The translations under genes were made by a program, and so were the position numbers. A stretch of 64,000 bases of DNA from Liolophura sinensis (taxonomy: Eukaryota; Mollusca; Polyplacophora; Chitonida; Chitonidae), in NCBI RefSeq assembly GCF_032854445.1, contig NW_027017953.1:684501-748500 (forward strand). Reading direction: 5' to 3'. Shown in pieces: positions 6,601 through 61,200 of the stretch. Within the stretch, counting starts at the first letter, position 1, and each line of letters starts with the position of its first letter. The notes beneath the pieces were generated by a model that saw only the letters and a list, made by a program, of their open reading frames with translations, was not told the DNA's origin and did no database searches.

Positions 6601-9600
6601 AATGATTCCTTCGTCGTCATATGACTGAAAAATTGTTGTGCTATGACATTAAACCCCAAGCACTCACTCACTCACTCACTCACTAGTGTCACTTTAATGA
6701 TACACGGAGCACAATAATGATGTGACCTGCGATGAGGAGACGCCATTATGGTCTGGCAAAGGATGATCAAGGAAAGGGACTGATGAACTTCCAAAAAACA
6801 ATAGAGGAGCAAAACTTTTGCTTGAATCCAGAAAGAGCTCTTCCCATCTTGAACTTGCGTCACTTGTGAACTGTGTAGCGCTATACATGTATGTAGGCCT
6901 ATTCATGATTCAGATTAACAGGATTGTATAGAGACACGAACTGGATATACCATTATCTGCATTGTTTTTACAGAACCTTTCATGGATCCTACAATGTGGC
7001 CTTGAAGACGGTGAATTTATTAATCAGTGTTATAGGCCAGAAGAAATGGACCAATGCTGGGTAAGCTTGAAATGCCACCAATCATGAAGGGATTGGATCT
7101 TTACAGGGAAAGTAAATTTCCTGTAATGAATTATTGAAAAAGAAACATAATACTGTGTTAAAGTGTGGCTTATTTTTTTTTTTTTGAGAATTACATTTTA
7201 TCCTTAGAGCTTTAGATGTTTCATTTCTTTCTTTAGTTTTTATTCTGTTATGTTAACAGTAAATTTACCAGAAAACCTTGTATCTTAGTGACAGTTATCT
7301 GATCACATACTCCATGACCGTAGGACTCTAGAAACTGCATGAACAAAGTAATGCCTAATGCATGCACCTGAACTGTGTCATAATACTACAGCTTTTAAAA
7401 TTCATGGTCGCCACGATATTGTTAAAATACTGCTGAGGCGTTAAGCCATAATCACTCATTCAACGCGTTCATGGCATTACACAAACAATCAAATAAATAA
7501 ATGAAATCAAAAGATGCATGAAGAAAACAGTGCAAATGTGCAGAGATGTATGTTATAACAGAATATCTTCAGTATACGTTTGATCTGCCGTGACTATATT
7601 ACTGTATCAGGGAGTTGATGGAATCCGTGAGAGAGGAGGGAAAACGGATGATGGCTGCCCAGTCCTCGGAGACGGCTGTAGGAAACATGGCACGAAGAGT
7701 TCTGAAGATCATCAGAGAGGAATATGCCACGTAATGTTTCTACTTCATGTTTCCTTTGCATTCAGGGTTTAAATCACCCCTGATATTTAACTCCGTGACA
7801 TGAGTTACATAGTGATGAGTGTGCTGTAAAACATAGGACTTGCCTGTTTATAGCATTCCAGTGGCATGTAGAACTGTGAGGGTTTGTGTGTATGCCTCAC
7901 TGCTGGCAGATGTTTTAATGCATCTTGAGGAGTTTAATCAGCTTTGGATCAGTAGATAAGATTTGTTGCAGCAGCTTCCCTGCCCCTCTATTCCCAGAGA
8001 TCTCATTTTGTAAGCAAAAACTACTTTAGCTTGCTGTAAAACAGTGAGGTAATAAGTTTCTGAATAATTTTGACAATGTACTTGATGTGGCCTAATGATG
8101 AGGTATTCGATGTCTTGTTGTTCTGGCCTAATGATGAGGTATTCAATGTCTTGTTGTTCTGGCCTAATGATGAGGTATTCAATGTCTTGTTGTTCTGACT
8201 TCAGATCTAAAGGGAAGTCAGAAGAGGGAGATCCCCAGGAATCTTTACAGGTGAGCTATGTGTCATACACAGGTCCACTGTACAGGTAAGCTGTGTGTCA
8301 TATGCAGGCCTGCTGTACAGGTAAGCTTTGTGTCATACACAGGTACAGTGTACAGGTCAGCTTTGTGTCCACTGTACAGGTGAGGTTTGTGTGATACACA
8401 GGTCCACTGTACAGGCGAGCTTTGTGTCCACTGTACAGGTGAGGTTTGTGTCATGCACACGTCAACTGTACAGGTGAGTTTTGTGTCATACGCAGGTCCA
8501 CTGTACAGGTCAGCTTTGTGTCATACACACGTCCACTGTACAGGTGAGGTTTGTGTCATGCACACGTCTACTGTACAGTTGAGCTTTGTGTCATACACAT
8601 GTCCACTGTACAGATGAGGCTTGTTTCATACACACGTCCACTGTACAGGTCAGCTTTGTGTCATACACAGGTCCACGGTACAGGTGAGGTTTGGCGTCAT
8701 ACGTAGGTCCACTGTACAGGTGAGCTTTGTGTCATACACACGTCCACTGTACAGATGAGGTTTGTTTCATACACACGTCCACTGTACAGGTCAGCTTTGT
8801 GTCATACACAGGTCCACGGTACAGGTGAGGTTTGGCGTCATACGTAGGTCCACTGTACAGGTGAGCTTTGTGTCATACACAGGTCCACTGTACAGGTGAG
8901 TTTTGTGTCATACACACGTCCACTGTACAGGTGAGCTTTGTGTCATACACAGGTCCACTGTACATGTGAGGTTTGTGTCATGCACACGTCCACTGTACAG
9001 GTGAGCTTTGTGTCATGCACATGTCCACTGTACAGGTGAGGTTTGGTGTCATACGCACGTCCACTGTACAGGTGAGCTTTGTGTCATACGCAAACCCACT
9101 GTACATGTGAGGTTTGTGTCATACACAGGTCCACTGTACAGGTGAGGTTTGTGTCATACGCAGGTCCACTGTACAGGTGAGCTTTGTGTCATACACAGGT
9201 CCACTGTACAGGTGAGCTTTGTGTCATACGCAAACCCACTGTGCAGGTGAGGTTTGTGTCATACACACGTCTACTGTACAGGTGAGTTTTGTGTTATATG
9301 TAGGTCCACTGCACCGGCCTGCTTTGTGTCATACACAGGTCCACTGTACAGGTGAGCTTTGTGTCATACACAGGTCCACCCTACAGGTTAGCTTTGTGTT
9401 GTACATGCACAGGTCCAGTCTACAGGTGAGCTTTGTGTTGTACATGCACAGGTCCACCCTACAGGTGAGCTGTGTGTTGTACATGCACAAGTCCAGTCTA
9501 CGGGTGAGCTTTGTGTTGTACATACATAGGTCCACCCTACAGGTTAGCTTTGTGTTGTACATACATAGGTCCAATGTAATGGTGAGCTTTGTGTTGTACA

Positions 9601-12600
9601 TGCACAGGCCCAGTCTACAGGTGAGCTTTGTGTTGTACATGCACAGGTCCACCCTGCAGTTGAGCTTTGTGTTGTACATGCACAGGCCCAATCTACAGGT
9701 GAGCTTTGTGTTGTACATACATAGGTCCACCCTACAGGTTAGCTTTGTGTTGTACATACATAGGTCCAATGTAATGGTGAGCTTTGTGTTGTACATGCAC
9801 AGGTCCAGTCTACAGGTGAGCTTTGTGTTGTACATGCACAGGTCCACCCTGCAGGTGAGCTTTGTGTTGTACATGCACAGGCCCAATCTGCAGGTGAGCT
9901 TCGTGTCATACACAAGTTAAATCTACACAGCACAAAAGCATGAAATGAAATTACATAAATAACTATTTAAAATGAATGTGAATATATGTAATAAATAGAA
10001 AAACACACTTCTGGAAAATTGATCACTTGGAGAAAGAATAGAATTAAAAACTGGAATAATTAATATATGTATAACCAAAGTTAAGACAGGAAAGATGTAA
10101 GATTAGTGTAAGTCATGTATATGTGGGATTAGTGAAAGTCATGCAGAATTAGTGTAAGTCATGTAGGATTAGAGTATGTCTTGTAGCATGGTAAAGGATG
10201 AAATATGCCTTATGTTAACTGTTTGTGTTTTCAGAAACTACTACTGGCAGAAGGCAAGATTGATGACTACTCAATCACCTTTCAAGATCTCAAAGTATGT
10301 TTAGTACAGTTTTTTACTTGCAGTGTTTTCTTCATTGAGAACTAAAACCACTCTTTCCTGTCAATCATGAGATGGCAATTCAGCTAAATGCAGAATAAAC
10401 TTAGCAAAACTTTCCAACAATATGATGGCGGATTTTTCAATGTGCTTTTAGGTTAGCATCACATTGCTGCAGTCATATAATGAGGGTCTCACTCATGATA
10501 TGAAAGCATGAGGCAGAGGTGCGTACAGTGTAGCTGCGTACGTGGGAAGGTCTGCCAACAACATGCGGATGGTCATTGGTTTCTCCCAGTTCTTCCTTGT
10601 TTCCTCCAATAATGCTGTTAGCCTTCGTTAAAGTGAAATATTCTGGAATATGACATAAAACATCAATCAAATAAATAAATGAACAAACAAACAATGTAGC
10701 TGTGTGCAGCCTCAAATTCAGGTCAATATGTAGTTATCTGCCCTTGAGTGTTCCACAGATGTCTTTGGTTGAAGATGACCATCACTTCATTGTCCCCAGT
10801 TATGAAAGCGTCACATCATTACAGCTGTGAGATAGGAAGATCAATACTAAAGGATGTATTTTACATTTGTTTTTTGACAGGGCTGTATAATTGATGCAGT
10901 TAGTGAGCTGAAAACAGAATTGGAAACAAGGTGAGTGTCAGCACAGTGTTATCACAATTGTACAAAGTCTTCACTTTGAACTGCGTGGATACTTTAATGA
11001 GGGAGTGAGTTATGATCTTATCTGAACTTTGCTGGAGGGAGTTATGATGTTACCTGAACTTTGATGGGGATGGTTAGTCGACAAAATTCTACAGCATAGA
11101 GGGTAAAACCAGAGCAGCGATGATGGTGTGATAGCTGGCAAATGATCACATGTAACCAGTGAAACCCGGCTACAGCATAGAGAGTAAAACCAGAGCAGCA
11201 AGACGGTTAAACCCGGCTGCAGCATAGAGAGTAAAACCAGAGCAGCAATGACGGTTAAACCCGGCTGCAACATAGAGAGTAAAACCAGAGTAAAACCAGA
11301 GCAGCAATGACGGTTAAACCCGGCTACAGCATGGAGAGTAAAACCAGAGCAGCAATGACGGTTAAACCCGGCTGCAGCATAGAGAGTAAAACCAAAGCAG
11401 CAATGACGGTTAAACCCGGCTGCAGCATAGAGAGTAAAACCAGAGCAGCAATGACGGTTAAACCCGGCTACAGCATAGAGAGTAAAACCACAGCAGCAAT
11501 GATGGTTAAACCCGGCTACAGCATGGAGAGTAAAACCAGAGCAGCAATGACGGTTAAACCCAGCTACAGCATAGAGAATAAAACCAGAGCAGCAATGACG
11601 GCTAAACCCGGCTACAGCATAGAGAGTAAAACCAGAGCAGCAATGACGGTTAAACCCGGCTACAGCATAGAGAGTAAAACCAAAGCAGCAATGACAGTTA
11701 AACCCGGCTACAGCATAGAGAGTAAAACCAGAGCAGCAATGACGGTTAAACCTGGCTACAGCATAGATAGTAAAACCAGAGCAGCAATGACAGTTAAACC
11801 CGGCTACAGCATAGAGAGTAAAACCAGAGCAGCAATGACGGTTAAACCCGGCTACATTATGGAGAATAAAAGCATGGCAACAATGACGGTTAAACCCGGC
11901 TACAACATGGAGGGTAAAACGAGAGCAGCAATGACGGTTAAACCCAGCTACAGCATGGATTGTAAAACGAGAGCAGCAATGACGGTTAAACCCGGCTACA
12001 ACATGGAGGGTAAAAGCATGGCAACAATGACGGTTAAACCCGGCTACAACATGGAGGGTAAAACCAGAGCAGCAATGACGGTTAAACCCGGCTACAGCAT
12101 GGAGGATAAAAGCATGGCAACAATGACGGTTAAACCCGGCTACAGCATGGAGGGTAAAACGAGAGCAGCAATGACGGTTAAACGCGGCTACAGCATGGAG
12201 AGTAAAACCAGAGCAGCAATGACGGTTAAACCTGGCTACAGCATGGAGGGTAAAACCAGAGCAGCAATGACGGTTAAACCCGGCTACAGCATAGAGAGTA
12301 AAACCAGAGCAGCAATGACGGTTAAACCCAGCTACAGCATAGAGAGTAAAACCAGAGCAGCAATGATGGTTAAACCCAGCTACAGCATGGAGGGTAAAAC
12401 CAGAGCAGCAATGACAGTTAAACCCGGCTACAACATGGAGGATAAAAGCATGGCAACAATGACCGTTAAACCCGGCTACAACATGGAGGGTAAAAGAATG
12501 ACAACAGTGACAGTGTGCTAGTTGGCAAATGATCACATGTAACTGGTGAAACATGGCTACAGCCTAGAGAGTAAACCATATGGCCTCTTGTTTAGTTACC

Positions 12601-15600
12601 GTAGTTAAGATTTTGTTCTAGGTCAGTGGTGTTAATACTTTTGGCAGTCTGATTTCCTCAACCCATAAATCTGGCCTCTATCTCATGAGTAAAAGAATTA
12701 TTGAGTATGGCATTAAACCAGAATTGAACAAATGAATGAACAAATGAATTTGTCAGAGAAGGACATGAATGAATGAATGAACATTTGTCAGAGAAGGACA
12801 TGAATGATGAATGAACATTTGTCAGAGAAGGACATGAATGATGAATGAACATTTTTCAGAGAAGGACATGAATGATGAATGAACATTTGTCAGAGAAGGA
12901 CATGAATGATGAATGAACATTTGTCAGAGAAGGACATGAATGAACATTTGTCAGAGAAGGACATGAATGATGCTGAATTCATAGGACCTAGTCACAGCAG
13001 GGGAATTAGTGCCTGGAATTTCCCGTAAACTTAACAGGATTTTACAGTAATTTACATATACTTTCATATGATGTTTTCACCTGCGCTGTAATACAACAGG
13101 GTGATAAAAAAGGTGATGGAACATGTCTTACTGGTTCAGTGTACAATTGTGTTGTTTTTGTTGTCCAGTGGTGATACGATAGCCTCCCAGGCTCATGTCT
13201 TCCTGGATCAGTGTATAATCGAGTTGTTGTTGTTGTCCATTGGTGATAGGATAGCCTCCCAGGCTCATGTCTTACTGGATCAGTGTGTAATCGTGTTGTT
13301 CTTGTTGTCCAGCGGTGATAGGATAGCCTCTCAAGCTCATGTCTTACTGGATCAGTGTATAATTGTGTTGTTCTTGTTGTCCAGTGGTGATAGGATATCC
13401 TCCCAGGCTCATGTCTTACTGGATCAGTGTATAATTGTGTTGTTCTTGTTGTCCGGTGGTGATAGGATAGCCTCCCAGGCTCATGTCTTACTGGATCAGT
13501 GTATAATTGTGTTGTTCTTGTTGTCGAGTGGTGATATGATAGCCTCCCAGGCTCATGCCTTACTGGATCAGGGTACAATCGAGTTGTTCTTGTTGTCCAT
13601 TGGTGATAGGATATCCTCCCAGGCTCATGCCTTACTGGATCAGTGTATAATTGTGTTGTTCTTGTTGTCGAGTGGTGATACGATAGCCTCCCAGGCTCAT
13701 GCCGTACTGGATCAGTGTGTAATCGTGTTGTTCTTGTTGTCCATTGGTGATAGGATAGCCTCCCAAGCTCATGTCTTACTGGATCAGTGTATAATTGTGT
13801 TGTTCTTGTTGTCCAGTGGTGATAGGATAGCCTCCCAGGCTCATGCCTTACTGGATCAGTGTATAATCGTGTTGTTCTTGTTGTCCAGTGGTGATAGGAT
13901 ATCCTCCCAGGCTCATGCCTTACTGGATCAGTGTATAATTGTGTTGTTCTTGTTGTCCAGAGGTTATACGATAGCCTCTCAGGCTCATGTCTTAATGGAT
14001 CAGTGTATAATTGTGTTGTTCTTGTTGTCGAGTGGTGATAGGATATCCTCCCAGGCTCATGTCTTACTGGATCAGTGTATAATTGTGTTGTTGTTGTTGT
14101 CGAGTGGTGATAGGATAGCCTCCCAGGCTCATGTCTTACTGGATCAGTGTATAATTATGTTGTTGTTGTTGTCGAGTGGTGATAGGATAGCCTCCCAGGC
14201 TCATGTCTTACTGGATCAGTGTATAATTGTGTTGTTGTTGTTGTCGAGTGGTGATACGATAGCCTCCCAGGCTCATGTCTTACTGGATCAGTGTATAATT
14301 GTGTTGCTTTTGTTGTCGAGTGGTGATATGATAGCCTCCCAGGCTCATGTCTTACTGGATGAGTGTATAATTGTGTTGTTCTTGTTGTCAAGTGGTTATA
14401 CGATAGCCTCTCAGGCTCATGCCTTACTGGATCAGTGTATAATTGTGTTGTTCTTGTTGTCGAGTGGTGATATGATAGCCTCCCAGGCTCATGTCTTACT
14501 GGATCAGTGTATAATTGTGTTGTTCTTGTTGTCGAGTGGTGATAGGATAGCCTCCCAGGCTCATGCCTTACTGGATCAGGGTACAATCGAGTTGTTCTTG
14601 TTGTCCATTGGTGATAGGATATCCTCCCAGGCTCATGCCTTACTGAATCAGTGTATAATTGTGTTGTTCTTGTTGTCCAGTGGTGATAGGATAGCCTCCC
14701 AGGCTCATGTCTTACTGGATCAGTGTATAATTGTGTTGTTCTTGTTGTCGAGTGGTGATATGATAGCCTCCCAAGCTCATGTCTTACTGGATCAGTGTAT
14801 AATTGTGTTGTTCTTGTTGTCCAGTGGTGATAGGATAGCCTCCCAGGCTCATGTCTTACTGGATCAGTGTATAATTGTGTTGTTCTTGTTGTCCAGTGGT
14901 GATAGGATATCCTCCCAGGCTCATGTCTTACTGGATCAGTGTATAATTGTGTTGTTCTTGTTGTCCGGTGGTGATACGACAGCCTCCCAGGCTCATGCCT
15001 TACTGGATCAGTGTATAATCGTGTTGTTTGTGTTGTCCAGTGGTGATAGGATAGCCTCCCAGGCTCATGTCTTACTGGATCAGTGTATAATTGTGTTGTT
15101 CGTGTTGTCCAGTGGTGATAGGATAGCCTCCCAGGCTCATGTCTTACTGGATCAGTGTATAATTGTGTTGTTCTTGTTGTCAAGTGGTTATACGATAGCC
15201 TCCCAGGGTCATGCCTTACTGGATCAGTGTATAATCGTGTTGTTCTTGTTGTCCAGAGGTTATACGATAGCCTCTCAGGCTCATGCCTTACTGGATCAGT
15301 GTATAATTGTGTTGTTCTTGTTGTCCAGTGGTGATAGGATAGCCTCCCAGGCTCATGCCTTACTGGATCAGTGTATAATTGTGTTGCTCTTGTTGTCCAG
15401 TGGTGATAGGATAGCCTCCCAGGCTCATGTCTTACTGGATCAGTGTATAATTGTGTTGTTCTTGTTGTCGAGTGGTGATAGGATAGCCTCCCAGGCTCAT
15501 GTCTTACTGGATCAGTGTATAATTGTGTTGTTCTTGTTGTCGAGTGGTGATAGGATAGCCTCCCAGGCTCATGTCTTACTGGATCAGTGTATAATTGTGT

Positions 15601-18600
15601 TGTTCTTGTTGTCCAGTGGTGATACAATAGCCTCTCAGGCTCTGGAGCACATCCATTCTAATGAGGTGATAATGACTGCTGGTAGATCACAGACGGTGGA
15701 AGCATTTCTCAAAGTAAGTCCATGGAAAACATACAGTTATGTGTCATTTCAAAACTGATTAATTTTTGGGGTGTGGGAGAAAGGCGGGACTTTGTGGCAG
15801 AGGTGGTTAGCACACCAGTACGGTGCAATAACCCAGGATCCTCTCACCACTGTGGTCACTGTGAGTTCCAAGTCCATAACTGGGAAGGTCTGCCGGTGAC
15901 CTGCAGATGATGGCGGGATTCCACCGGGCTCTGCTCAGTTTCCTTCCACCATAATGCTAGCCGCCGTTGTATATGGAATATTCTGGAGTGCAATGTAAAA
16001 CCGATCATCCGATTTTGTGAGTGCGGTACTGCTCCAGTAGTATAACCGATTGACTTAAAACTTTGAAGTAAAATTGCCCCATATCTGAAGTTATCAGTCC
16101 TGCAAATTGTTTTTTTCTAAGTCATCTGGTTTGGCAGCCATATTGGAGTGAGTTGCAAATCACTTTAACATCTTCTCAGGAACCACTGAACTGATTATGG
16201 TATTAGGCTTCATGCTTTCTGCTGCACTGTCCATGATTTCCCCAAAAGGTTGGGCGACTACAGACAGCTATGCTGTCTTCTATTTGATAGTGTAGAATGA
16301 TAACTACAACAACAAATGACATGGACGCTGGCCGAAACTGCTTTGCAGTTCTAGTTAATGTATATTTTTTATTTATCTTTCAGAAATGAAATATATGCCT
16401 TATTTTTCCATTATCTTGTTTTAAAGAATGCTGCTAGGAAAAGGAAATTCCAAGTGATTGTTGTGGAGTGTGCACCCTTCTTTCATGTAAGTTTCCTTGT
16501 GTTGGTCACTGTGATACTGTAGATGGAGTGTTTATAAAGAATTCCTCAGACATAGCTCATAACAATGATTGTAAATGTTTGATATGAAAGATATTACGAC
16601 AGAAATCAGTACCACAGATATTTTTCATTTTTGGGGTATATTTGCTGTCTTGCTTATTTGTTTTATTTATTTTTTTGATTGATGTTTTACACTGTACATT
16701 GCTTATTTGAACACTAAGGACTTGACATAAATTGGATATACATGTGGAGTATAAGAAACATTACATTTGTTGCAGCCTTTAACTCAAAATTACCCCGTCA
16801 TGGTTTGCTGTATTTAAGAGAGCCAGGTCAAGAGTGTCGTTGAAATATAATTGAGAGTAAGAGCTTAAGCGACCACATGATGGCCGCCAAATGCTCATCC
16901 ATGTATATAACTGGTGTTATCTGACCAATTTACCTTTGTTACGATTTCGTTTTAACCGTTCATGTAAATGCTTAGATAATAGCACCATTGCTCAAGCAGA
17001 ATCAGATTAATAAGAGAAGCAGTGATGTTGGTGTGCTATTTATGACACTTTACTGGTGTAGGATTATTACAAATTGTTGCTAGGATTAGGGTTGTTCTAA
17101 TTAGGATTTTGAACACAAATCACCTGAACACTTAAGTCCATGAACTAAATATACATAGCAGTTGTTCATTCTGAAAGCCTTATTGGTCACATTCTTAGTA
17201 TACCTGTGACGGTTCAGGCTGCAGTCAGTTGTGAATATTTCACTCCAGTTAGAATGAGTTTTACGTATAAAGATTACCCTGCTGTTCTGTGTTGTACAGG
17301 GTCAAGAGCTGGCCGTCAGCCTGGCTAAACATGGCATAGAGACAACGGTTATCAATGACTCAGCGGTTTTTGCTGTGATGTCACGTGTCAACAAGGTTAT
17401 CATAGGCACACATACTGTCATGGCAAACGGCGGGTAAGTTGTACAGAAAGGACACTCGCTCTTCACTGACAAGTCAAACATTTGTGTACAATTGCTGTTT
17501 GATTGTGAAATGACTATAATCCAAGTGATCATTACACAAATGTTACAACATCAGAGCAGTCTCCTTCCCAAGACATTATTGGGTCAGAATGTAACTAGCA
17601 CCTGTGTTCTTGGTGAAGTCACTGTAGACTCCAGATGCAAGGACGTTTGAAGAAAATAGCTTCTCTTGAGCCATTTAGCCTACTCTGTGCAATGTAACCA
17701 CCAAAGCAACATAAAACAAAACTTGATTCTGTGATAGTTATACCCATGTGCTCTTGTGTACATGGAAATACAGTAGAAATGTAAAACCATGTACACTTGA
17801 TGGCGTGGTAGTTATACCTATCTGCTCTTGTCTACATGGAAATACAGTAGAAATGTAAAACCATGTACACTTGATGGTGTGGTAGTTATACCTATGTGCT
17901 CTTGTGTACATGGAAATACAGTAGAAATGTAAAACCATGTACACTTGATGGCGTGGTAGTTATACCCATGTGCTCTTGTGTACATGTAAATACAGTAGAA
18001 ATGTAAAACCATGTACTCTTGATGGCGTGGTAGTTATACCCATGTGCTTTTGTGTACATGTAAATACAGTAGAAATGTAAAACCATGTACACTTGATGGC
18101 GTGGTAGTTATACCCATGTGCTCTTGTGTACATTGAAATACAGTAGAAATGTTAAACCATCTACACTTGATGGCGTGGTAGTTATACCTATGTGCTCTTG
18201 TGTACATGGAAATACAGTAGAAATGTAAAACCATGTACACTTGATGGTGTGGTAGTTATACCTATGTGCTCTTGTGTACATGGAAATACAGTAGAAATGT
18301 AAAACCATGTACACTTGATGGCGTGGTAGTTATACCAATGTGCTCTTGTGTACATGGAAATACAGTAGAAATGTAAAACCATGTACACTTGATGGCGTGG
18401 TAGTTATACCTATGTGCTCTGGTGTACATGGAAATACAGTAGAAATGTAAAACCATGTACACTTGATGGCGTGGTAGTTATACCCATGTGCTCTGGTGTA
18501 CATGGAAATACAGTAGAAATGTAAAACTATGTACACTTGATGGTGTGGTAGTTATACCCATGTGCTCTTGTGTACACGGAAATACAGTAGAAATGTAAGA

Positions 18601-30490: not shown

Positions 30491-34207
<3,717 letters not shown>

Positions 34208-34466: not shown

Positions 34467-34524
<58 letters not shown>

Positions 34525-34956
34525 GTCTACACGCGTAAATACGTACGTCGTGCGAAATACAAGAAATTGTAAAGACGAAGACACTAATAACATTAACCTC
34601 ATAATTAAATAAGGTACGTTGAGACTTCCAGAGGGGCAGATTTGTTAGTGGCTATTTGTTTTTTTTTTAATTTTTTTATTGCAAATGATAAATGTCAGAG
34701 TCCACTCGATGTCCCTAGTCCACACTGTTCCCATGTGCAGCTCGTTTTACAAGGGAATTCCCGCCAGGACTCCTTTTATGGAATAATGACATCACCGAGG
34801 GGCCTTCCCCAAGCAGGACCCAGCATGCATCTAGGGCTCTACCGAGCATGCTCGTGACATAGTCGACAAGGAGCACGCCATATTGGAGAAAGTTCATGGG
34901 ATTCTAAAGCCGTGTGGTGAAAAATCCATTGCCATCCTCCGACAAGAGAGGACATA
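34208..34956. promoter_or_regulatory. divergent promoter region of ZNF367 and SERBP1/HABP4
   Basis: 749 bp between two start codons pointing away from each other. It contains TTTTCCCGCC (34412-34421, a strong E2F consensus TTTCCCGC), TTCCCGCC (34758-34765, E2F-like) and TGACATCA (34788-34795, one base from a CRE). An (AT)n microsatellite separates the two E2F-like sites. Another GCGGGAAA lies at 35281-35288 in SERBP1 intron 1. E2F sites fit the known cell-cycle expression of mammalian ZNF367; their use here is inference. Confidence 0.55.
34466..34521. repeat. (AT)n dinucleotide microsatellite
   Basis: About 27 uninterrupted AT dinucleotides within the divergent promoter, likely polymorphic in length. 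Confidence 0.98.
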
Positions 34957-35200
34957 ATGGAGACCACATACGGCGTAGCAGTTGCCAACAAATATTCACT
35001 TTTTACAGACGAGGATGCTGATCCTTTAGAAATATTAAGGCAGCAGGAGGAGCAGCTAAAGAAAAAGAAGGACGAGGTAAAACCGAAGTCCGACAAATCT
35101 GCAAAAACTGCGAAAAACAAGCAGGTGAAAAAAGCTGTTGCTCCTCCTGAACCAGAGCAGAAAGTGAAGCAACAGGACCAAAATACGAATAGGAGAGAAG
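34957..35200 (+). CDS. SERBP1: SERBP1/HABP4 exon 1
   Basis: Starts [16 protein letters not shown] after an in-frame-independent 5' leader and ends AGAGAAG|GTATAA. Codons 1-81 cover the conserved N-terminal motif and a lysine-rich segment ([19 protein letters not shown]). The open frame runs 17 codons past the donor but loses similarity there. Confidence 0.92.
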
Positions 35201-41200: not shown

Positions 41201-44200
41201 CCATGCATAAGTCATTCTGGATACAAATTTTCATGGTAATTCTTCTGGATGATGGGTATGGAATGTCAGTTTACTATATCATTTTCCAGAACACTAGTGT
41301 GTATAGTTTTCTTTAGTAATTAGGAGAAAAAATTTATTTAAATTGTCTTAACTCAAAGCTTGTTTTGTGGGCCTGAGCTGAACGTATAGGTGCATCTGCA
41401 ATGTCTGTGTGAAGTCTGAAAATAATGGAAAAAGTAAAAAAAACTATGATTGGAAACCTGTCTTGTTTTGATGACTGATTCATTTGGCACATTCTTTATG
41501 ATACATTGTTTCACACCAAATATGTTATAAATGGATTTATTAAGTTTTTCATATCGTTTCCTTTCATATGTAAAATTTCGGTGAGCATTCTGCCAAAGGC
41601 ATAACAATATATACAGAGGGCTCCATTGAAAGCAGACCTCTGCTAAATCTGTCCTTGCTCCATTTCGGCTGTTCTGGCCTGATTTGGGATGATAAGGGAA
41701 ACTATGGCCTTTTTGCAGAGGGATAAAGTCTGTTGAGAAGCGGGATGGTGGTGGTGCCCACAACTGGGGGTCCGTCAAGGATGAGCTAGAGTAAGTGTGT
41801 ATAGTGAGGACCTTGACCCTGCTCCTCTCCCTGCCTTACAAACTAAAATTTGCTTGTGAAAAACTACAGCTTGTTTCTTTACCATTTGAGTGGGGTGGAA
41901 ATAGAAGTGGGAGTTGCTGGTCCTGTAGTGTCGTAATGCATGAGGAGGATTTCCAGGGAACATTTCCACCCTCTGGTTGTGTAAAACTTGTGTTGATTTA
42001 GCATTCAACCATATTCAGTCAAGTTTTTGTGAAAATTGCTACTAATCACCAAGAAAAAAAGAATGCAAATTTTATTTAACAGCTTGCGTTATTAATGTAT
42101 TGATTTTGCAAGGTTTTTCTATGTATAGATTAGCCTACTTTTCAACTCAAGAAACCTCTGGTTTTCGCACCACTTGAGTTAGATTGTGTGCAGTTACCTT
42201 GCATGTGTTAGCTCCACCTTTATTCACAAAATGCAGGTAATAGTTCACTCTTTCACCTAGTAATGATGCCGATTGCTCTGCTTTTTTCACTTCCTTCTTT
42301 GACCTTGTCTCCATGGCCACTTTCACAATACGTAATAATAATTTTTTGGTTTTTCCTTGTCATTTAACCTGGAAAGTGTCTTTTCAGAAAAAAACCCTTT
42401 TGGATGGAAGGTGTTTAAAGTGTTGTGAGGGTGGCCGTGTCCCCTTTGTTCTCTTGACACTAACAATGAATTATTGCTGTACATGTCATACCTTCACTAT
42501 ATAGCATACTCTGCTCATTTGGAGTCCAGTAGAATGGAGTATACAGTGATCTTAATTTTTCTAGTGGTGGTGTTCTCTTTCTGGGATTTGTCAGAATTTA
42601 CTGACCTGTTTGGTGTGAAATGTTCCTTGTGTTACTAACAGTTTTGTTTTGCATACCGTCACTGTTATACTTTTTTTGCCAACTTCCTACCTCCAGGTAA
42701 AGTGGATGTAGTGATCCTGTCTTTGCTTGAAGACATTTTATATTAAAATACTAAAAACAGTAGGTCTGGCATGATGAGGGTGCAACAAAAAAGACCATTT
42801 AAGAATGGGTATATTATGGAAGGCATACTTTTATCCTGACTCTCTTAGAAAGGAACTGCTGATGGTGTTGTGGAGATACGCTTCTTACGATTTAAACACT
42901 TTGAGAAAGGGGCTACCTTACTGGACACCCAAATGAATCTTCACGCCTTTTAAAGTGAACATACAATGCGTGTAGCATTTGGGCAGGGAAGTGGCGGGGA
43001 GATTAAGATCTGAGCAGTTTGATGACGAAGTGGGATGCTTTCAATTCTGAGTGAAGCAGAGTGGTTTAGCCAAGGTACACGGGTTTCCAACACATAAAAC
43101 TTGTCATACACATTGTATGGCATTACACTTTACGGTAAACGGAGTTAATTTGGAATAGAGTGAAGCAGGTTCACTCATTAAGATTTTTGTCTTCACTTGA
43201 CATTCTCTTTGTGGGCATTTAACTCTCATCGGGTATATACTACAAGGCCGTTGGTAAATATCCACTTTCTCCATTATTTTTGGCTTGATCTCACCCTGCC
43301 TTAGATCTAACAATTCCCATGGTTTTGTGGTGACTGCATGTATTTTAAAATAGTTTATGTTTGGTTGCAAGTTCTTACCTTGTTCATTATGCACTGTAGA
43401 GATTCGTTTGATATCTTATTTTTCAGTTGATATGTGAAAATATTTTTAAAAATTCAGATAATGTACTGCTCAAGCAGAAGTCAAGTTGAATGGACAGTAT
43501 AACTATTGATGAAACAAACTCAGCAGTTAATGGTGTCACTTTGGTAGTAGTTGGGCCCTTAACCAGCAATAGGGCATGTTCTGATCCATCTGCTGCTGGT
43601 AGAGCAGTGAGCAATGTTGGGAGGTTGTCGGGTGCTTGGGGGAGAGCTGTGATTCCTGAAGGGTTCTGCCTCTACCTTCATCTTTAAACCCGGCCAGTGT
43701 TATTGTACAGTGTAAATTGTTAATGGAGTAAACAATGACTTATTTTAGAACTTGTGAGAGGGTAGGAATTTCAGTGGTTTCATGCGTGTTTTTTTCTTGG
43801 CAGTGAACAGTTGAAGGATGCTAATGACAGCCAGGAGATCCACCCCCCAACTGAGGACACGGAAAATCAGGATCCCAAGTATGTACACACAACACGACAT
43901 TGTTATGGATAAGAAAGAGTACGTCATTGTCAGGGATGAATATGAATACGACCATGTCAGGGATGAGAATGAATACAAGTGTCAGGGGTGAGAATGAATA
44001 TGGCATTGTCAGGGGTGAAAATGAATACGGCATTGTCAGGGATGAGAATGAATACAACAGTGTCAGGGGTGAGAATGAATATGGTATTGTCAGGGGTGAA
44101 AATGAATACAACAGTGTCGGGTGAGAATGAATACGGCATTGTCAGGGATGAGAATGAATACGGCATTGTCAGGGATGAGAATGAATACGGCATTGTCAGG

Positions 44201-46054
44201 GATGAGAATGAATACGGCATTGTCAGGGATGAGAATGAATACGACATTGTCAGGGATGAGAATGAATACGGCATTGTCAGGGGTGAGAATGAATACGGCA
44301 TTGTCAGGGATGAGAATGAATACAAGTGTCAGGGGTGAGAATGAATACAAGTGTCAGGGGTGAGAATGAATATGGTATTGTCAGGGGTGAAAATGAATAC
44401 GGCATTGTCAGGGATGAGAATGAATACAACAGTGTCAGGGGTGCGGATGAATATGGCATTGTCAGGGGTGAAAATGAATACGGCATTATCAGGGATGAGA
44501 ATGAATACGACCTTGTCAGAAATGAAAATGAATACGACCTTGTCAGAAATGAAAATGAATACGACCTTGTCAGAAATGAAAATGAATACGGCATTGTCGG
44601 GGATGAAAATCTTCAGCTGGTTTTATAGGAAATCAGGATTTTCATAGCAGCTAATGATCAAAATGAATGATTTTACTAATTGAGTTGAAGGGGTGGTGAT
44701 TTTGATGGAAAAGATTGTTTCCCCCCTGGTTTATACATTATCTACCAGTTGTCGGGTCTTTGTCAATTACTATGTATACTGTAGGAGGAAAGTTCAGAAT
44801 GCAGAATATAGTCTTCCTGATCCGAAGGTGTAAGATGTGCTTCTGTGGATTCTGGTGGTGGCACTAATGTAAAAGCAGTATGGGGAGTTAAAGGTTAACC
44901 GAGAATTTCTCCACAAGTTAGGGTGAAAAACATTAGTCTTCTTTCTGGTAGTCTCCCTTTGAAGTCTAGTCGTTGTAACTCTGGCGTCCTGATATACAGA
45001 TAAGGTGCTCATTGAAACTCAGCACCTGATAAGTGGTATTATGTAGATCTCCTCAGGTGGTGGAGGCCAGTCCCTAGGTTCACCTGGACTGCTGTGTTAA
45101 GGTGTATGTTTGTGTTTCAGTGAGAGTGGGGAGTTGTCTGAGCCAGCCCACGATGCGGAGCCTCAAGAAGAGGAGAAACAAATGACGCTGGACGAATGGA
45201 GAGCTCTCCAGTCCCGGAACAGAGTCAAGACTGAGTTCAACATCCGCAAACCCAATGAAGGCGTGGATGACAGTCAGTGGCGCAAGATGACCAAACTGGC
45301 CAAAAAACCCAAGGAGGAAGAGAGCGAGGAAGAAAGTGAGGAGGAAGAAGAGGTAATGTGTAGCATGAGAGCAATGTGTTAAGGCTGTCTGAGAGAGCCA
45401 CCAACTTCACAAGACTACATTAGCAGGTTTGGCTTTTACAGTAAACACACAAGTTATCACTTGTTTTCATAGTGTGGTGAAAGTCTCATTTTATGACTGA
45501 CAAGAACCATTATGTGTAGCCCATTTAAAGCAAAAACATTACATATGCATTCTTCTAGTTTTAGTTTTCATCAGGTAATGTTCTTTTGGTATTCTAAAAT
45601 TCCTGTCCGGGCAGTTAAGCACAAAATTTCAAGATCAGCAACTTGCTGTACTTCTATTTTTTCTCACAATTACATGTCCATTGTTCAGCCAACTGCTTGG
45701 TTCTCGCTAAAGGTTAACTTGTGCTACAATAGAACTGAATTGGACACCGTGATATTGAAACTTCCAAAGCAGGGTTGATTCAATTGATATAACAAAACTA
45801 GTCTTAAAGTATTGTCTTTGTTCACCTTACAGGAAGACGAGAGAGCACGTCAGAAGGCCCTGTTGAACATTAAAATCACATTCAACGACTCTCCTCGCCG
45901 TGGGCGTGGAGGCAGGCGGCCGCGTGCCAGTCGTGGCGGGCGAATGCCCAGTGGTGGTGGTCGTGGTGAGAGGCGTGGTCCGCGCGAAGCTGCGCCGAGG
46001 TTTGACGATGAGAATGACTTCCCGAGTCTGGGGGTCATCAAGACGGTGGCGTGA
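34957..46054 (+). CDS. SERBP1: SERBP1/HABP4-family RNA- and ribosome-binding protein (7 exons, 426 aa)
   Basis: Members (SERBP1, HABP4/Ki-1/57, yeast Stm1) bind mRNA and idle ribosomes, with nuclear and cytoplasmic pools. Exons 34957-35200, 38432-38573, 40452-40745, 41719-41790, 43804-43878, 45121-45352 and 45833-46054 join to 426 aa with consistent phases; human SERBP1 is about 400 aa. The N-terminus [18 protein letters not shown] matches the (N)RF..LFDDE.DPFEVL motif. A basic/RGG region follows (NRQE repeats, [17 protein letters not shown]). Next are the family signatures [10 protein letters not shown] and [10 protein letters not shown], then [18 protein letters not shown], an acidic EEESEEE run and a C-terminal RGG tail with NDFPSLG. 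One gene probably represents the ancestor of vertebrate SERBP1 and HABP4; the ZNF367 neighbourhood matches HABP4. Confidence 0.96.
35201..38431 (+). other. SERBP1/HABP4 intron 1
   Basis: 3.2 kb, unique except for the 34-bp array at 36525-36968 and poly-T runs near 36420 and 38190. GCGGGAAA at 35281 is an E2F-type site near the 5' end. No exon is seen between the two called exons. Confidence 0.7.
36525..36968. repeat. 34-bp minisatellite carrying a donor-like GGCTAG|GTAAGAG, about 13 units
   Basis: The unit is GGCTAGGTAAGAGAGCCTCA plus CCTTAATATCTTTA. Each unit contains TAG|GTAAGAG, a close match to the 5' splice-site consensus, in the sense orientation of the host intron. Unlike the other arrays, it does not copy a neighbouring exon edge. 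Confidence 0.94.
38432..38573 (+). CDS. SERBP1: SERBP1/HABP4 exon 2
   Basis: Between TGTCTGCGCAG and GAATTCAG|GTACCC. Encodes an arginine-rich segment: [20 protein letters not shown], then [20 protein letters not shown]. Phase 2 at both ends. Confidence 0.9.
38574..40451 (+). other. SERBP1/HABP4 intron 2
   Basis: 1.9 kb without tandem arrays, SINEs or recognisable exons, which is unusual for this window. Confidence 0.7.
40452..40745 (+). CDS. SERBP1: SERBP1/HABP4 exon 3 (octapeptide repeats and RGG box)
   Basis: Between TCTTGTTGCAG and AAGAC|GTAAGT. Codons 129-227. Begins [11 protein letters not shown], then successive GGFG(S/N)RQE octapeptides (24-nt coding repeat, about four copies at 40500-40610). 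An RGG box follows, then [16 protein letters not shown], the family's conserved (R)EFDRHSGSD motif. The octapeptides are not in the human proteins I recall. Confidence 0.95.
40746..41718 (+). other. SERBP1/HABP4 intron 3
   Basis: Unique AT-rich sequence; nothing beyond splice signals recognised. Confidence 0.6.
41719..41790 (+). CDS. SERBP1: SERBP1/HABP4 exon 4 ([10 protein letters not shown] motif)
   Basis: Between CTTTTTGCAG and GCTAGA|GTAAGT. Encodes [20 protein letters not shown] and DEL, the most conserved word of the HABP4/PAI-RBP1 domain. 72 nt. Confidence 0.95.
41791..43803 (+). other. SERBP1/HABP4 intron 4
   Basis: 2.0 kb of unique sequence with no tandem array or transposon recognised. 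Confidence 0.6.
43804..43878 (+). CDS. SERBP1: SERBP1/HABP4 exon 5
   Basis: Between TTCTTGGCAG and GATCCCAA|GTATGT. Encodes acidic [20 protein letters not shown] and NQDP, parallel to the HPPADTENKE segment of SERBP1. Confidence 0.9.
43905..44625. repeat. 27-bp minisatellite, about 26 units
   Basis: The unit is GGTGAGAATGAATACGGCAT plus TGTCAGG. It starts about 30 bp inside SERBP1 intron 5. Many units contain AGG|GTGAGA, a donor-like string. 27 bp is 9 codons, so ENEYGIVRG-type frames of 74-122 codons appear on both strands; they are artefacts. Confidence 0.95.
45121..45352 (+). CDS. SERBP1: SERBP1/HABP4 exon 6 (MTLDEW block)
   Basis: Between TGTGTTTCAG and GAAGAG|GTAATG. Encodes [39 protein letters not shown] and [17 protein letters not shown], then an acidic tail. 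Clear family signature. Confidence 0.97.
45833..46054 (+). CDS. SERBP1: SERBP1/HABP4 exon 7 (C-terminal RGG tail, stop)
   Basis: After TTCACCTTACAG. Encodes [20 protein letters not shown], then [19 protein letters not shown] and [18 protein letters not shown] before TGA at 46052. The ITF-x-RGG-x-FPSL architecture matches the family end (INFGD...RGG...FPAL). Confidence 0.96.
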   Translation, partial: EDERARQKALLNIKITFNDSPRRGRGGRRPRASRGGRMPSGGGRGERRGPREAAPRFDDENDFPSLGVIKTVA

Positions 46055-55189: not shown

Positions 55190-55256
55190 TCAGTGAGAAT
55201 GGCCATCCAATGCTCGTAAAAACTTCTGCTCAATTAGACGTGGAACAAGTTTGTGT
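55190..55256 (-). CDS. SLC4A11: SLC4A11 last exon (stop)
   Basis: After TTTTGTCTTGCAG. Encodes [21 protein letters not shown] and TGA, the cytosolic C-terminus equivalent to the LLPRIIEAKYLDVMD end of the human protein. 67 nt. Confidence 0.93.
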
Positions 55257-58200
55257 CTGCAAGACAAAAGTGACATATTTATCAAATATTTATACAAACA
55301 TTTAATAAAGATCTTAATAACACATTCATAAAATATGTAACAATAAATATACAACATTTTGGATGATAAAGTTATTATTATCATGACTTGCCTACATACA
55401 TTGTGTATTAAAAGTCACAGCAATACGTATCTCCCCTTGAGAAGTCAGCTGACACTGCAAGTGACTTACCTAATTGACACTGTAAGTGACTTACCTAATT
55501 GATACTGTAAGTGATTTACCTGCTTTACATTGTAAGTGACTCACCTAACTGACATTGTAAGTGACTTACCTAATTGGCATTGTAAGTGACTTTCCGAATT
55601 GATACTATACTTGACTCACGTAATTCACACTGTAAGTGACTTAACTAATTGACACTGTAAGTGACTTACCTAATTGACACTGTAAGTGACTTACCTAATT
55701 GGCACTGTAAGTGACTTACCTGACTGACACTGTAAGTGATTTACCTAATTGACATTGTAAGTAACTCACCTAATTGACATTGCAAGTGACTCACCTAATT
55801 GACATTGTAAGTGACTCCCCTAACTGACATTGTAAGTGAATTACCTAATTGACACTGTAAGTGACTTACCTTATTGATATTGTAAGTGACTTACCTAATT
55901 GACACTGTAAGTGACTTACCTAACTGGCACTGTAAGTGATTTACCTAATTGACATTGTAAGTGGCTCACCTAATTGACATTGTAAGTGACTCGCCACTTA
56001 TTGATATTGTAAGTGACTTACCTAATTGACACTGTAAGTGACTTACCTAACTGACACTGTAAGTGATTTACCTAATTGACATTGTAAGTGGATCACCTAA
56101 TTGACATTGTAAGTGACTCACCTAATTGACATTGTAAGTGACTCACCTAAATGACATTGTAAGTGACTTACCTAACTGACATTGTAAGTGACTCACCTAA
56201 TTGACATTGTAAGTGACTTACCTAACTGGCATTGTAAGTGACTTACCTAATTGGCATTGTAAGTGACTTACCTAATTGGCACTGTAAGTGACTTACCTAA
56301 TTGGCATTGTAAGTGACTTACCTAATTGGCATTGTAAGTGACTTACCTAATTGGCATGAGAAACATAATGAGAATAGGGAAGATCATCTTCATGTATGGA
56401 ATTGGGGAAAATCCAAAACAACACAGGATGACAAACTGTACAAACTGTATCCCCGTGAAGAGGTGAATCTTCCTCTGTGGTACACGCCGTATGTAGTGGT
56501 TTGGTGGATAGGCAGACTGCAGATAGAAACACAAGCATAGTGAGTCAACAGGGGGAGAGCCGTATGTAATGGTTTAGTGGATAGGCTGACTGGGGATAGA
56601 AACACAAGCATAGTGAGTCAACAGGGGGAGAGCGGTATGTAATGGTTTGGTGGAAAGGCTGACTGGGGATAGAAACACAAGCATAGTGAGTCAACAGGGG
56701 GAGAGCCGTATGTAATGGTTTGGTGGATAGGCAGACTGCGGATAGAAACACAAGCAAAGTGAGTCAACTGAGGGGAGCCGTTTGTTGTGGTTTGGTGGAT
56801 AGGCTGACTGGGGATAGAAACACAAGCATAGTTAGTCGCCTGAGGGAGAGCCGTATGTTGTGGTTTGGTGGGTAGGCTGACTGGGGATAGAAACACAAGC
56901 ATAGGGAGACTGGGGACAGAAACACAAGCATAGTGAGTCAACAGGGGGGGAGCCGTATGTAATGGTTTGGTGGATAGGCAGACTGCGGATATAAACACAA
57001 GCATAGTGAGTCAACTGAGGGAGAGCCGTATGTTGTGGTTTGGTGGAAAGGCTGACTGGGGATAGAAACACAAGCATAGTGAGTCAACTGAGGGAGAGCC
57101 GTATGTTGTGGTTTGGTGGATAGGCTGACTGGGGATAGAAACACAAGCAAAGTGAGTCAATTGAGGGGAGCCGTTTGTTGTGGTTTGGTGGATAGGCTGA
57201 CTGGGGATAGAAACACAAGCATAGTTAGTCACCTGAGGGAGAGCCGTATGTTGTGGTTTGGTGGATAGGCTGACTGGGGATAGGAACACAAGCATTGTGA
57301 GACTGGGGACAGAAACACAAGCATAGTGAGTCAACAGGGGGAGAGCCGTATGTAATGGTTTGGTGGATAGGCAGACTGCGGATATAAACACAAGCATAGT
57401 GAGTCAACTGAGGGAGAGCCGTATGTTGTGGTTTGGTGGAAAGGCTGACTGGGGATAGAAACACAAGCATAGTGAGTCAACTGAGAGAGAGCCGTATGTT
57501 GTGGTTTGGTGGATAGGCTGACTGGGGATAGAAACACAAGCATAGTGAGACTGGGGACAGAAACACAAACATAGTGAGTCAACAGGGGGAGAGCCGTATG
57601 TAGTGGTTTGGTGGATAGGCAGACTGGGGATAGAAACACAAGCATAGTGAGTCAACTGAGGGAGAGCCGTATGTTGTGGTTTGTTCGATAGGTAGACTGC
57701 GGACAGAAACACAAGCACAGTGAGTCAACTGAGGGAGAGCCATATGTTGTGATTTGGTGGATAGGCTGACTGGGGATATAAACACAAGCATAGTGAGTCA
57801 ACTGAGAGAGAGAGGTGTATGTTGCACTTTGGTGCATAGACAGACTCAGGATCAACGCACAAGCATAGTGAGTCAACTAAGAGAGAGCTGTATGTTATGG
57901 TTTGTTCCATAGGCAGACTGCGGACAGAAACACAAGCACAGTGAGTCAGCTGAGAGAGAGTTGTATGTAATGGTTTGGTGGATAGGCAGACTGCGGATAG
58001 AAACACAAGCAGAATGAGTCAACTGAGAGAGAGCCGTATGTAGTGGGTTGGTAGATATACAGACTGGGGATAGAAACACAAGCATAGTAAGTCAACTGAG
58101 AGAGAGAGGTGTATGTTGCAGTTTGGTGGATAGACAGACTCAGGATAGAACACAAGCATAGTGAGACTGGGGATAGAAACACAAGCATAGTTAGTCACCT

Positions 58201-61200
58201 GAGGCAGAATAGTATGTAGTAGTTCAGTGGATAAGCAGTCTGGGGATAGAAACACAAGCACAGTGAGTTATCAAATGAGAAGATCCGTATGTAGAGATTT
58301 GTTGGATAGGCAGACTGGAAAAGTAGCCAGTGGGAGAGAAGGAGACAAAACAGAAATAAAAAGAGAGAGGAGGAAGAGTGATTAACGAGCCAGATGGTGA
58401 GGAGGAAATCAACCAGAGGGAGACAAAGAAACCAGCCTGATGGTGAGGAGGAAATCAACCAGAGGGAGACAAAGAAACCAGCCAGATGGTGAGGAGGAAA
58501 TCAACCAGAGGGAGACAAAGAAACCAGCCTGATGGTGAGGAGGAAATCAACCAGAGGGAGACAAAGAAACCAGCCAGATGGTGAGGAGGAAATCAACCAG
58601 AGGGAGACCAAGAAACCAGCCAGATGGTGAGGAGGAAATCAACCAGAGGGAGACAAAGAAACCAGCCTGATGGTGAGGAGGAAATCAACCAGAGGGAGAC
58701 AAAGAAACCAGTCAGATGGTGAGGAGGAAATCAACCAGAGGGAGACAAAGAAACCAGCCAGATGGTGAGGAGGAAATCAACCAGAGGGAGACAAAGAAAC
58801 CAGCCTGAGGGTGAGGAGGAAATCAACCAGAGGGAGACAAAGAAACCAGCCAGATGGTGAGGAGGAAATCAACCAGAGGGAGACAAAGAAACCAGCCTGA
58901 TGGTGAGGAGGAAATCAACCAGAGGGAGACCAAGAAACCAGCCAGATGGTGAGGAGGAAATCAACCAGAAGGAGACAAAGAAACCAGCCAGATGGTTAGG
59001 AGGAAATCAACCAGAGGGAGACAAAGAAACCAGCCAGATGGTGAGGAGGAAATCAACCAGAGGGAGACAAAGAAACCAGCCAGATGGTGAGGAGGAAATC
59101 AACCAGAGGGAGACAAAGAAACCAGCCTGATGGTGAGGAGGAAATCAACCAGAGGGAGACAAAGAAACCAGCCAGATGGTGAGGAGGAAATCAACCAGAG
59201 GGAGACAAAGAAATCAGCCAGATGGTGAGGAGGAAATCAACCAGAGGGAGACAAAGAAACCAGCCTGATGGTGAGGAGGAAATCAACCAGAGGGAGACAA
59301 AGAAACCAGCCAGATGGTGAGGAGGAAATCAACCAGAGGGAGACCAAGAAACCAGCCAGATGGTGAGGAGGAAATCAACCAGAGGGAGACAAAGAAACCA
59401 GCCTGATGGTGAGGAGGAAATCAACCAGAGGGAGACGAAGAAACCAGCCAGATGGTGAGGAGGAAATCAACCAGAGGGAGACAAAGAAACCAGCCAGATG
59501 GTGAGGAGGAAATCAACCAGAGGGAGACAAAGAAACCAGCCTGAGGGTGAGGAGGAAATCAACCAGAGGGAGACAAAGAAACCAGCCAGATGGTGAGGAG
59601 GAAATCAACCAGAGGGAGACCAAGAAACCAGCCAGATGGTGAGGAGGAAATCAACCAGAGGGAGACAAAGAAACCAGCCTGATGGTGAGGAGGAAATCAA
59701 CCAGAGGGAGACGAAGAAACCAGCCAGATGGTGAGGAGGAAATCAACCAGAGGGAGACAAAGAAACCAGCCTGAGGGTGAGGAGGAAATCAACCAGAGGG
59801 AGACAAAGAAACCAGCCAGATGGTGAGGAGGAAATCAACCAGAGGGAGACAAAGAAACCAGCCTGATGGTGAGGAGGTAATCAACCAGAGGGAGACAAAG
59901 AAACCAGCCTGATGGTGAGGAGGAAATCAACCAGAAGGAGACAAAGAAACCAGCCAGATGGTGAGGAGGAAATCAACCAGAGGGAGACAAAGAAACCAGC
60001 CAGATGGTTAGGAAGAAATCAACCAGAGGGAGACAAAGAAACCAGCCAGATGGTGAGGAGGAAATCAACCAGAGGGAGACGGGGGCCTCCGTGGCTCAGT
60101 CGGTTAGCGCGCTAGCGCAGCGTAGTGACCCAGAAGCCTCTCACCAATGCGGTCGCTGTGAGTTCAAGACCAGCTCATGCTGGCTTCCTCTCCGGCCGTA
60201 CGTAGGAAGGTCTGCCAGCAACCTGCGGATGGTCGTGGGTTTAGGCGGGCTCTGCCCGGTTTCCACCCACCATAATGCTGGCCGCCGTCGTATAAGTGAA
60301 ATATTCTTGAGTACGGCGTAAAACACCAATCAAAAAAAAAAAAAACAAAACCAGAGGGAGACAAAGAAACCAGCCAGATGGTGAGGAGGAAATCAACCAG
60401 AGGGAGACCAAGAAACCAGCCAGATGGTGAGGAGGAAATCAACCAGAGGGAGACAAAGAAACCAGCCTGATGGTGAGGAGGAAATCAACCAGAAGGAGAC
60501 AAAGAAACCAGCCAGATGGTGAGGAGGAAATCAACCAGAGGGAGACAAAGAAACCAGCCAGATGGTTAGGAAGAAATCAACCAGAGGGAGACAAAGAAAC
60601 CAGCCAGATGGTGAGGAGGAAATCAACCAGAGGGAGACGGGGGCCTCCGTGGCTCAGTCGGTTAGTGCGCTAGCGCAGCGTAGTGACCCAGAAGCCTCTC
60701 ACCAATGCGGTCGCTGTGAGTTCAAGACCAGCTCATGCTGGCTTCCTCTCCGGCCGTACGTAGGAAGGTCTGCCAGCAACCTGCGGATGGTCGTGGGTTT
60801 AGGCGGGCTCTGCCCGGTTTCCACCCACCATAATGCTGGCCGCCGTCGTATAAGTGAAATATTCTTGAGTACGGCGTAAAACACCAATCAAAAAAAAAAA
60901 AAAAAAAAACCAGAGGGAGACAAAGAAACCAGCCAGATGGTGAGGAGGAAATCAACCAGAGGGAGACCAAGAAACCAGCCAGATGGTGAGGAGGAAATCA
61001 ACCAGAGGGAGACAAAGAAACCAGCCAGATGGTGAGGAGGAAATCAACCAGAGGGAGACAAAGAAACCAGCCTGGTGGTGAGGAGGAAATTAACCAGAGG
61101 GAGACAAAGAAACCAGCCAGATGGTGAGGAGGAAATCAACCAGAGGGAGACAAAGAAACCAGCCTGATAGTGAGGAGGAAATCAACCAGAGGGAGAGGAA

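Follow-up and report, generated by a model that had tools for sequence, protein, structure and literature searches.

Tandem arrays that carry the host gene's own splice junctions in introns of the chiton Liolophura sinensis

The window analyzed here is a 64-kb stretch (64,000 nucleotides [nt], positions 684,501 to 748,500 of contig NW_027017953.1, assembly GCF_032854445.1) from the chiton Liolophura sinensis (Mollusca, Polyplacophora; species name corrected in PMC12441733), in which three genes carry tandem arrays whose repeat units contain one of the gene's own splice junctions. Tandem Repeats Finder (TRF) assigns 43.7% of the window to 31 merged tandem arrays, and 51.6% of its intron bases lie within them. 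We modeled five genes, namely SETD9 (minus strand, two exons only), EIF2B2 (plus strand, 13 exons), ZNF367 (minus strand, four exons), HABP4 (plus strand, six exons) and the 3' part of SLC4A11 (minus strand, four exons); SETD9 and HABP4 (SERBP1 type) are the names that we presume to fit those two genes. The models of EIF2B2 (352 amino acids), ZNF367 (282 amino acids) and HABP4 each splice to a single uninterrupted open reading frame (ORF). The EIF2B2 model is 100% identical over 100% of its length to the annotated L. sinensis eIF2B subunit beta-like isoform X3, and the ZNF367 model is likewise 100% identical, at full length, to an annotated L. sinensis protein. Human SLC4A11 aligns with residues 2-198 of the 201-residue SLC4A11 3' part, which supports its penultimate exon, and for both EIF2B2 and SLC4A11 the models can be aligned to human proteins whose structures have been solved.

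Five arrays in the window span an exon-intron junction (three donors and two acceptors, so that both 5' and 3' boundaries are affected). They are listed here together with the EIF2B2 exon that abuts the first of them.

8205..8250, plus strand: EIF2B2 exon 4; the donor in use, between 8250 and 8251, belongs to the first of the 35-bp copies, and the spliced ORF is that of isoform X3.
8246..9914, plus strand: EIF2B2 exon 4 donor array; 35-bp unit, 45 full copies of TACAG/GTGAGC..., 5 exonic nt.
13122..15642, plus strand: EIF2B2 exon 7 acceptor array; 72-bp unit, 35 full copies, 26 exonic nt; the used acceptor, between 15616 and 15617, is the last copy.
31454..31719, minus strand: ZNF367 exon 2 donor array; 52/61-bp unit, 5 full copies, about 13 exonic nt; used donor between 31707 and 31706.
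55450..56357, minus strand: SLC4A11 penultimate exon donor array; 25-bp unit, 36 full copies, 11 exonic nt; used donor between 56347 and 56346.
56486..58316, minus strand: SLC4A11 penultimate exon acceptor array; 73-bp unit, 23 full copies, 31 exonic nt; used acceptor between 56517 and 56516.

At all five junctions the unit-aligned copies continue across the splice site into the exon. An earlier note, made from the letters of this stretch alone, had described repeat units holding the splice site together with 5, 26, about 13, 31 and 11 exonic nt at these exons, and both the lengths and the exon numbers are confirmed by TRF, the gene models and the unit alignment. For ZNF367, TRF itself sets the array edge at 31454-31706, exactly at the exon 2 donor (0 exonic nt), and the approximately 13 exonic bases come from aligning the units. 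In each of the five arrays the copy nearest the exon is the annotated or homology-supported splice site. Copies diverge from the consensus of their own array by 4-9% on average, adjacent units are barely closer to one another than all pairs are (for example, 0.119 versus 0.131), and edge units are more divergent in some arrays only. Neither in unit length nor in TRF identity do the junction arrays depart from the range seen in the window's other arrays. Splice-junction arrays thus exist in this genome, and they carry the real splice site of the host exon.

Beyond the window, we sampled genes that were chosen regardless of repeats, from Pfam families with long, many-exon domains searched in the L. 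sinensis genome (50 profile matches to PF00118 [CCT], 43 to PF00955 [SLC4] and 81 to PF00063 [myosin]). A fourth family, PF00171, had 14 matches and was left out of the sample. Stretches with neighboring matches were used, and splice sites were placed by continuity of the profile model together with GT/AG matrices trained on the window; match pairs with no candidate site, or with non-contiguous model positions, were left out of the intron count. The procedure yielded 71 introns, of which 66, from 25 genes or stretches, were kept (five, all from myosin, were dropped by a filter on score and margin). The large open-frame values that the genome search returned were considered as open arrays running through introns and then dropped, since the values seem to span neighboring matches in the same frame.

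Junction-spanning arrays were found in 7 of the 66 sampled introns, at five donors (one in each of two CCT genes, two SLC4 genes and a myosin gene, one of the SLC4 genes being SLC4A11 in the upstream part that lies beyond the window) and at two acceptors (both in myosin stretches). The arrays hold 6, 17, 17, 43, 3, 11 and 7 junction copies (40- or 42-nt probe; up to 14 copies inspected per array). In all seven the splice site that we placed is the one nearest the exon, although the placement itself favors sites near the homologous match; over window and sample together, all 12 arrays have the exon-proximal copy as their annotated or homology-inferred site. The exonic share of the unit ranges from 5 of 35 nt, in the EIF2B2 donor array, to about 93 of 109 nt in one CCT gene, and the shortest overlap within the sample is 9 nt, at a myosin acceptor. 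Donors outnumber acceptors by eight to four over both sets, which is no clear difference. The prevalence of 7/66 has a hand-calculated Wilson interval of about 5 to 20%; it becomes 6/64 when the window's own SLC4A11 gene is omitted (two introns, one array) and 8/71 when the filter is omitted (MYO_C3_10 has an array over a low-confidence donor). Splice-junction arrays are therefore a genome-wide class, occupying roughly one intron in ten, as the earlier note had supposed. One further observation from the myosin matches is that G000:C1:26642195-26642299 and 26643291-26643386 are adjacent matches to overlapping positions of the myosin head model (118-152 and 121-152); they are possibly mutually exclusive exons.

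Most arrays cross no junction (16 of the 21 intron-touching arrays in the window and 30 of the 37 in the sample), and some in the window end 7-26 nt short of exons. Three copies or arrays near exons, and two wholly within them, are as follows.

8088..8197, plus strand: 36-bp array, 7 nt upstream of the EIF2B2 exon 4 acceptor; does not cross the junction and has no AG.
43894..44610, plus strand: 27-bp array starting 15 nt past the HABP4 exon 4 donor; does not cross the junction.
31367..31446, minus strand: incomplete tandem duplicate of ZNF367 exon 3 within intron 2, immediately upstream of the real exon 3 acceptor (80 nt at 84%, shift 123 nt).
40498-40601: wholly exonic array in HABP4, period 24.
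30590-30631: wholly exonic array in ZNF367, period 21, two copies.

The first of these contains position 8089, which the earlier note had given as the first coordinate of its range; that coordinate belongs to a separate element. The two exonic arrays are the only ones that TRF reports wholly within exons of the window gene models, and both periods are multiples of three. We also scored the arrays for donors at least as strong as the median of the verified donors. None of the 16 non-junction arrays has one on the sense strand and 4 of the 16 have them on the antisense strand (39 in one array and 1 each in three), and the five junction arrays have 33 and 25 sense donors in two arrays, 2 in one and none in two.

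We consider it likely that these arrays are what have been called 'mirages' in amphioxus, arising when a founding tandem duplication straddles an exon-intron boundary by chance, so that a duplication process blind to junctions is filtered by selection. Local tandem duplications would arise throughout transcribed DNA, and the arrays would then grow, presumably by slippage or unequal exchange. If a duplication straddles a donor, the exon is followed by two exon-end/intron-start copies in tandem, and use of the first donor would restore the mRNA; if it straddles an acceptor, two intron-end/exon-start copies precede the rest of the exon, and use of the last acceptor would do so. A straddling duplication would be tolerated since, with the exon-proximal copy remaining in use, it would leave the mRNA as it was, and the extra copies would become intron and then drift. 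Duplications deeper in exons would be removed unless their period were a multiple of three, and periods divisible by three in HABP4 and ZNF367 are what is expected if selection filters blind duplication. Duplication all over transcribed DNA would also account for the fact that half of the window's intron sequence consists of arrays, and the variable exonic overhang is as expected for random breakpoints.

The principal alternative is that duplication is aimed at junctions, these being hotspots at which arrays start (through R-loops, AGGT microhomology or nucleosome edges), and the earlier note had favored a local process of this sort (R-loops or repair at the border). It had also held that intron minisatellites normally bear no relation to exon edges, which overlooks the array content of these introns: with 51.6% of intron sequence in arrays, contacts with exons are to be expected. 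We evaluated the number of contacts under two null models. In the first (fixed-length), arrays were placed at random in their own introns and the permitted entry into the exon was varied. Allowing 0, 5, 15 or 31 nt of overhang in the window, 0.14, 0.79, 1.89 or 3.24 crossings are expected where 5 of 21 arrays cross (P < 0.0001, 0.0007, 0.025 and 0.19, respectively); with arrays of at least 150 bp only, 2.1 crossings are expected at 31 nt against the 5 observed (P 0.037). In the second (random-seed), random founding segments of unit length were placed, a model whose outcome depends on the assumed unit (the shortest TRF period) and on the ancestral intron length; it expects 0.97 or 1.92 crossings in the window against 5 (P 0.002 or 0.035). 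The copies of the junctions themselves go beyond chance; the closeness of the window's arrays to exons amounts to a mild excess only, and the window was chosen for its striking look and cannot settle enrichment.

Several results from the sample weigh against our preferred explanation. The random-seed model expects 2.3 or 2.9 crossings where 7 are observed, a 2-3 fold excess (P 0.006 or 0.021); before the myosin genes were included, 4 of 49 introns had such an array where 1.7 or 2.0 were expected (P 0.08 or 0.13). Under the fixed-length model 0, 1.2, 2.2, 3.8 and 7.4 crossings are expected at overhangs of 0, 10, 20, 40 and 97 nt, and the corresponding P values (<0.001, <0.001, 0.0035, 0.066 and 0.64) are small at the shorter overhangs. 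The total number of introns examined, window and sample together, is also small (90). A weak junction bias is accordingly possible.

Against aimed duplication stands the distribution of the arrays along the gene. In the window we scored positions for a near copy (23 of 32 matching bases within 5 kb), which is present at 52% of positions deep in introns, at 13/46, 10/48 and 7/48 at 200, 40 and 20 nt into the intron, at 5/51 at the junction itself, at 2/51 and 3/51 at 16 and 20 nt into the exon, and at 5.8% inside exons; at a stricter threshold (24 of 32) the junction has 4/51 and the intron at 20 nt 7/48. Array coverage in the sample behaves in the same way (4/132 at 20 nt into the exon, 7/132 at the junction, and 10/132, 12/132, 14/130 and 18/80 at 20, 40, 100 and 300 nt into the intron), and neither set has a peak of coverage at the junction, only a smooth fall from deep intron into exon. 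The density of array ends in the sample is about equal on either side of the junction: per 60 nt, 1 end falls at 120-60 nt into the exon, the final 60 exonic nt contain 6, and successive intronic steps have 5, 5, 4, 5 and 3. The arrays behave as though the junction were absent, for about one unit length into the exon. The comparison with randomized placement that the earlier note had suggested, carried out on the window and the 66-intron sample, gives an excess under the random-seed model and fixed-length P values that run, in the sample, from <0.001 to 0.64 with the overhang allowed. Given the missing junction peak, and given in addition that most arrays cross no junction and that the random-seed excess hinges on assumed lengths, junction targeting is not supported, and we regard it as improbable. 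The same judgment, that it is unlikely, applies to a stronger version in which tandem duplication starts 2-3 times more often at exon-intron borders than elsewhere in introns and leaves arrays in about one intron in ten, perhaps by a process common to chitons and amphioxus.

A second alternative is that the arrays are selected for, as sets of alternative donors or acceptors that would buffer splicing or permit alternative splicing. The core dinucleotide is indeed kept in most full copies (counting the real site, GT in 40/45 for the EIF2B2 donor, 4/5 for ZNF367 and 32/36 for the SLC4A11 donor; AG in 29/35 for the EIF2B2 acceptor and 23/23 for the SLC4A11 acceptor), and many non-authentic sites equal or exceed the real one in score (20 in the EIF2B2 donor array, 18 in the SLC4A11 donor array, 11 in the EIF2B2 acceptor array, and none in the ZNF367 donor and SLC4A11 acceptor arrays). 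The figure for the EIF2B2 donor bears also on the reality of the exon 4 junction array claimed by the earlier note, whose 5 exonic bases are weak evidence by themselves, yet which holds 20 other sites scoring at least as high as the real donor. Boundary repeats are reported to give rise to alternative splicing in duplicated human genes (PMC2812944), and the 72-bp array of EIF2B2 can be read through as an open frame in the phase of exon 7, in a gene whose annotated protein is named isoform X3.

The splice-site columns, however, have diverged no more slowly than the other columns of the unit. In the five window arrays they are not more conserved than windows of equal length elsewhere in the unit, the windows with equal or lower divergence than the splice site numbering 18/35, 67/72, 37/52, 16/25 and 20/73 (EIF2B2 donor, EIF2B2 acceptor, ZNF367, SLC4A11 donor and SLC4A11 acceptor units, respectively), so that the copied splice sites are not visibly under constraint. 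The open frame of the 72-bp array is not significant either: its 32 distinct variants comprise 24 non-synonymous, 8 synonymous and 0 stop changes, and 8 of the 216 possible changes make a stop. The encoded peptide matched no protein at E of 0.001 or below among the 8000 candidates scored. On the variant classes, and on the missing protein match among those 8000 candidates, we reject this array as a coding repeat or an array of alternative exons, and a selected function for the arrays in general appears very unlikely. Two observations on EIF2B2 may be recorded alongside. Use of an acceptor further upstream in the 72-bp array would add multiples of 24 amino acids, and isoforms X1 and X2 are absent among the 120 matches listed.

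It could also be supposed that the assembly has collapsed or falsely expanded ordinary repeats. One sampled array, the myosin acceptor array with 43 junction copies (L040, MYO_C2_a; G000:C2:5374900-5380500), opens with a run of N near sense index 2240 and may be longer than assembled, and the amphioxus globin paper reports a mirage that was misassembled in a draft genome. The L. sinensis assembly is nonetheless described as built from PacBio HiFi reads averaging 8,347 bp (PMC11068029), as against approximately 4.4 kb for the longest array in the window, and copies within an array differ from their consensus by several percent; we consider an artefact highly improbable. Least credible of all is chance adjacency, in which ordinary intron minisatellites merely abut exons: array density is very high and some arrays do stop just short of an exon, but the units hold the real splice site together with exonic coding bases (11-31 nt in four of the five window arrays and about 93 nt in the CCT gene), and the idea is refuted for all but possibly the two shortest of the 12 overlaps (5 nt at EIF2B2 exon 4 and 9 nt at the myosin acceptor).

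Two features of the window lie apart from the arrays. ZNF367 and HABP4 adjoin in opposite orientation (window positions 30491-46054); we take them to be neighbors in human as well, which suggests an old synteny. A sequence at 6300-6400 appears by eye to be tRNA-like and of short interspersed element (SINE) type, and ARAGORN reports no tRNA there or anywhere else in the window.

The tandem-repeat load itself deserves comment. Arrays make up 24% of intron bases in the genome sample. The L. sinensis genome paper gives 0.08% for a class of 'other (simple repeat, microsatellite, RNA)' (PMC11068029), against 43.7% for the TRF arrays of the window; the minisatellite load may sit hidden in other repeat classes. 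In another chiton genome, TRF is reported to find 9.21% tandem repeats (PMC11545220).

These results suggest that some animal genomes may harbor large numbers of introns that hold stacks of their own splice site, with certain copies matching the real one in strength. The exon-side copy still appears to be the one that the gene uses, which would let such introns show, as experiments of nature, how the spliceosome selects one site from a repeated set. The chiton arrays could likewise serve as a test bed for the proposal that duplications of this kind seed new introns, and they call for caution in annotating genes and predicting splice sites in array-rich genomes.

The earlier note knew of no such class of minisatellite, but the kind has already been named. 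The founding paper on mirages, as later papers cite it, is that of Canestro et al. in 2002. Mirages have been described mainly from cephalochordates and are minisatellite-like tandem repeats that span an exon-intron boundary; in amphioxus they are reported at 5' or 3' boundaries of Adh3, the globins BflGb6 and BflGb9, PGBD5 and troponin C, where many copies have kept AG or GT and splicing is regular (PMC3087553, PMC3902484). Variable minisatellites at exon-intron boundaries have also been reported from recently duplicated human genes in segmental duplications, with 27 intron modifications after manual inspection; they share the location of the chiton arrays and differ in their confinement to segmental duplications and in the stress laid on new introns and alternative splicing (PMC2812944). 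Among molluscs, the open-licence literature that we searched, mostly titles and the beginnings of abstracts, contains no report of junction arrays, nor do the passages on tandem repeats, satellites and introns in the chiton genome papers mention them.

Ordinary intronic minisatellites, or variable number tandem repeats, resemble the chiton arrays in unit length and TRF identity and lack the splice site and coding bases of an adjacent exon. Another parallel is intron gain, for which the Rogers model (cited in PMC3087553) invokes tandem genomic duplication of exon sequence containing AGGT, and of which the potato RdRp gene is a reported case (PMC4974935); there too the copies carry splice signals, but they create a new intron within an exon, whereas the chiton copies extend an existing one. 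The amphioxus mirages match most fully. In both animals the unit reaches across the boundary and takes in exonic bases together with the real splice site (12 arrays in the chiton), and both donors and acceptors are affected. The production of a normal mRNA from the authentic site, a further trait of mirages, may hold here as well; the annotated EIF2B2 and ZNF367 proteins agree with the exon-proximal copies. Mirages are also marked by concerted evolution within the array that leaves out the edge units, a trait on which the chiton arrays offer the slight closeness of adjacent units and the divergent edge units of some arrays, and by length instability between haplotypes and in somatic cells. The chiton arrays differ in that their host is a mollusc and not a cephalochordate, in copy number (3 to 45, against 6 and 3 units reported for two haplotypes of amphioxus BflGb6), and in having an estimate of prevalence (7/66 sampled introns). 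What is new is therefore the phylum, as far as the literature searched shows, and the prevalence.

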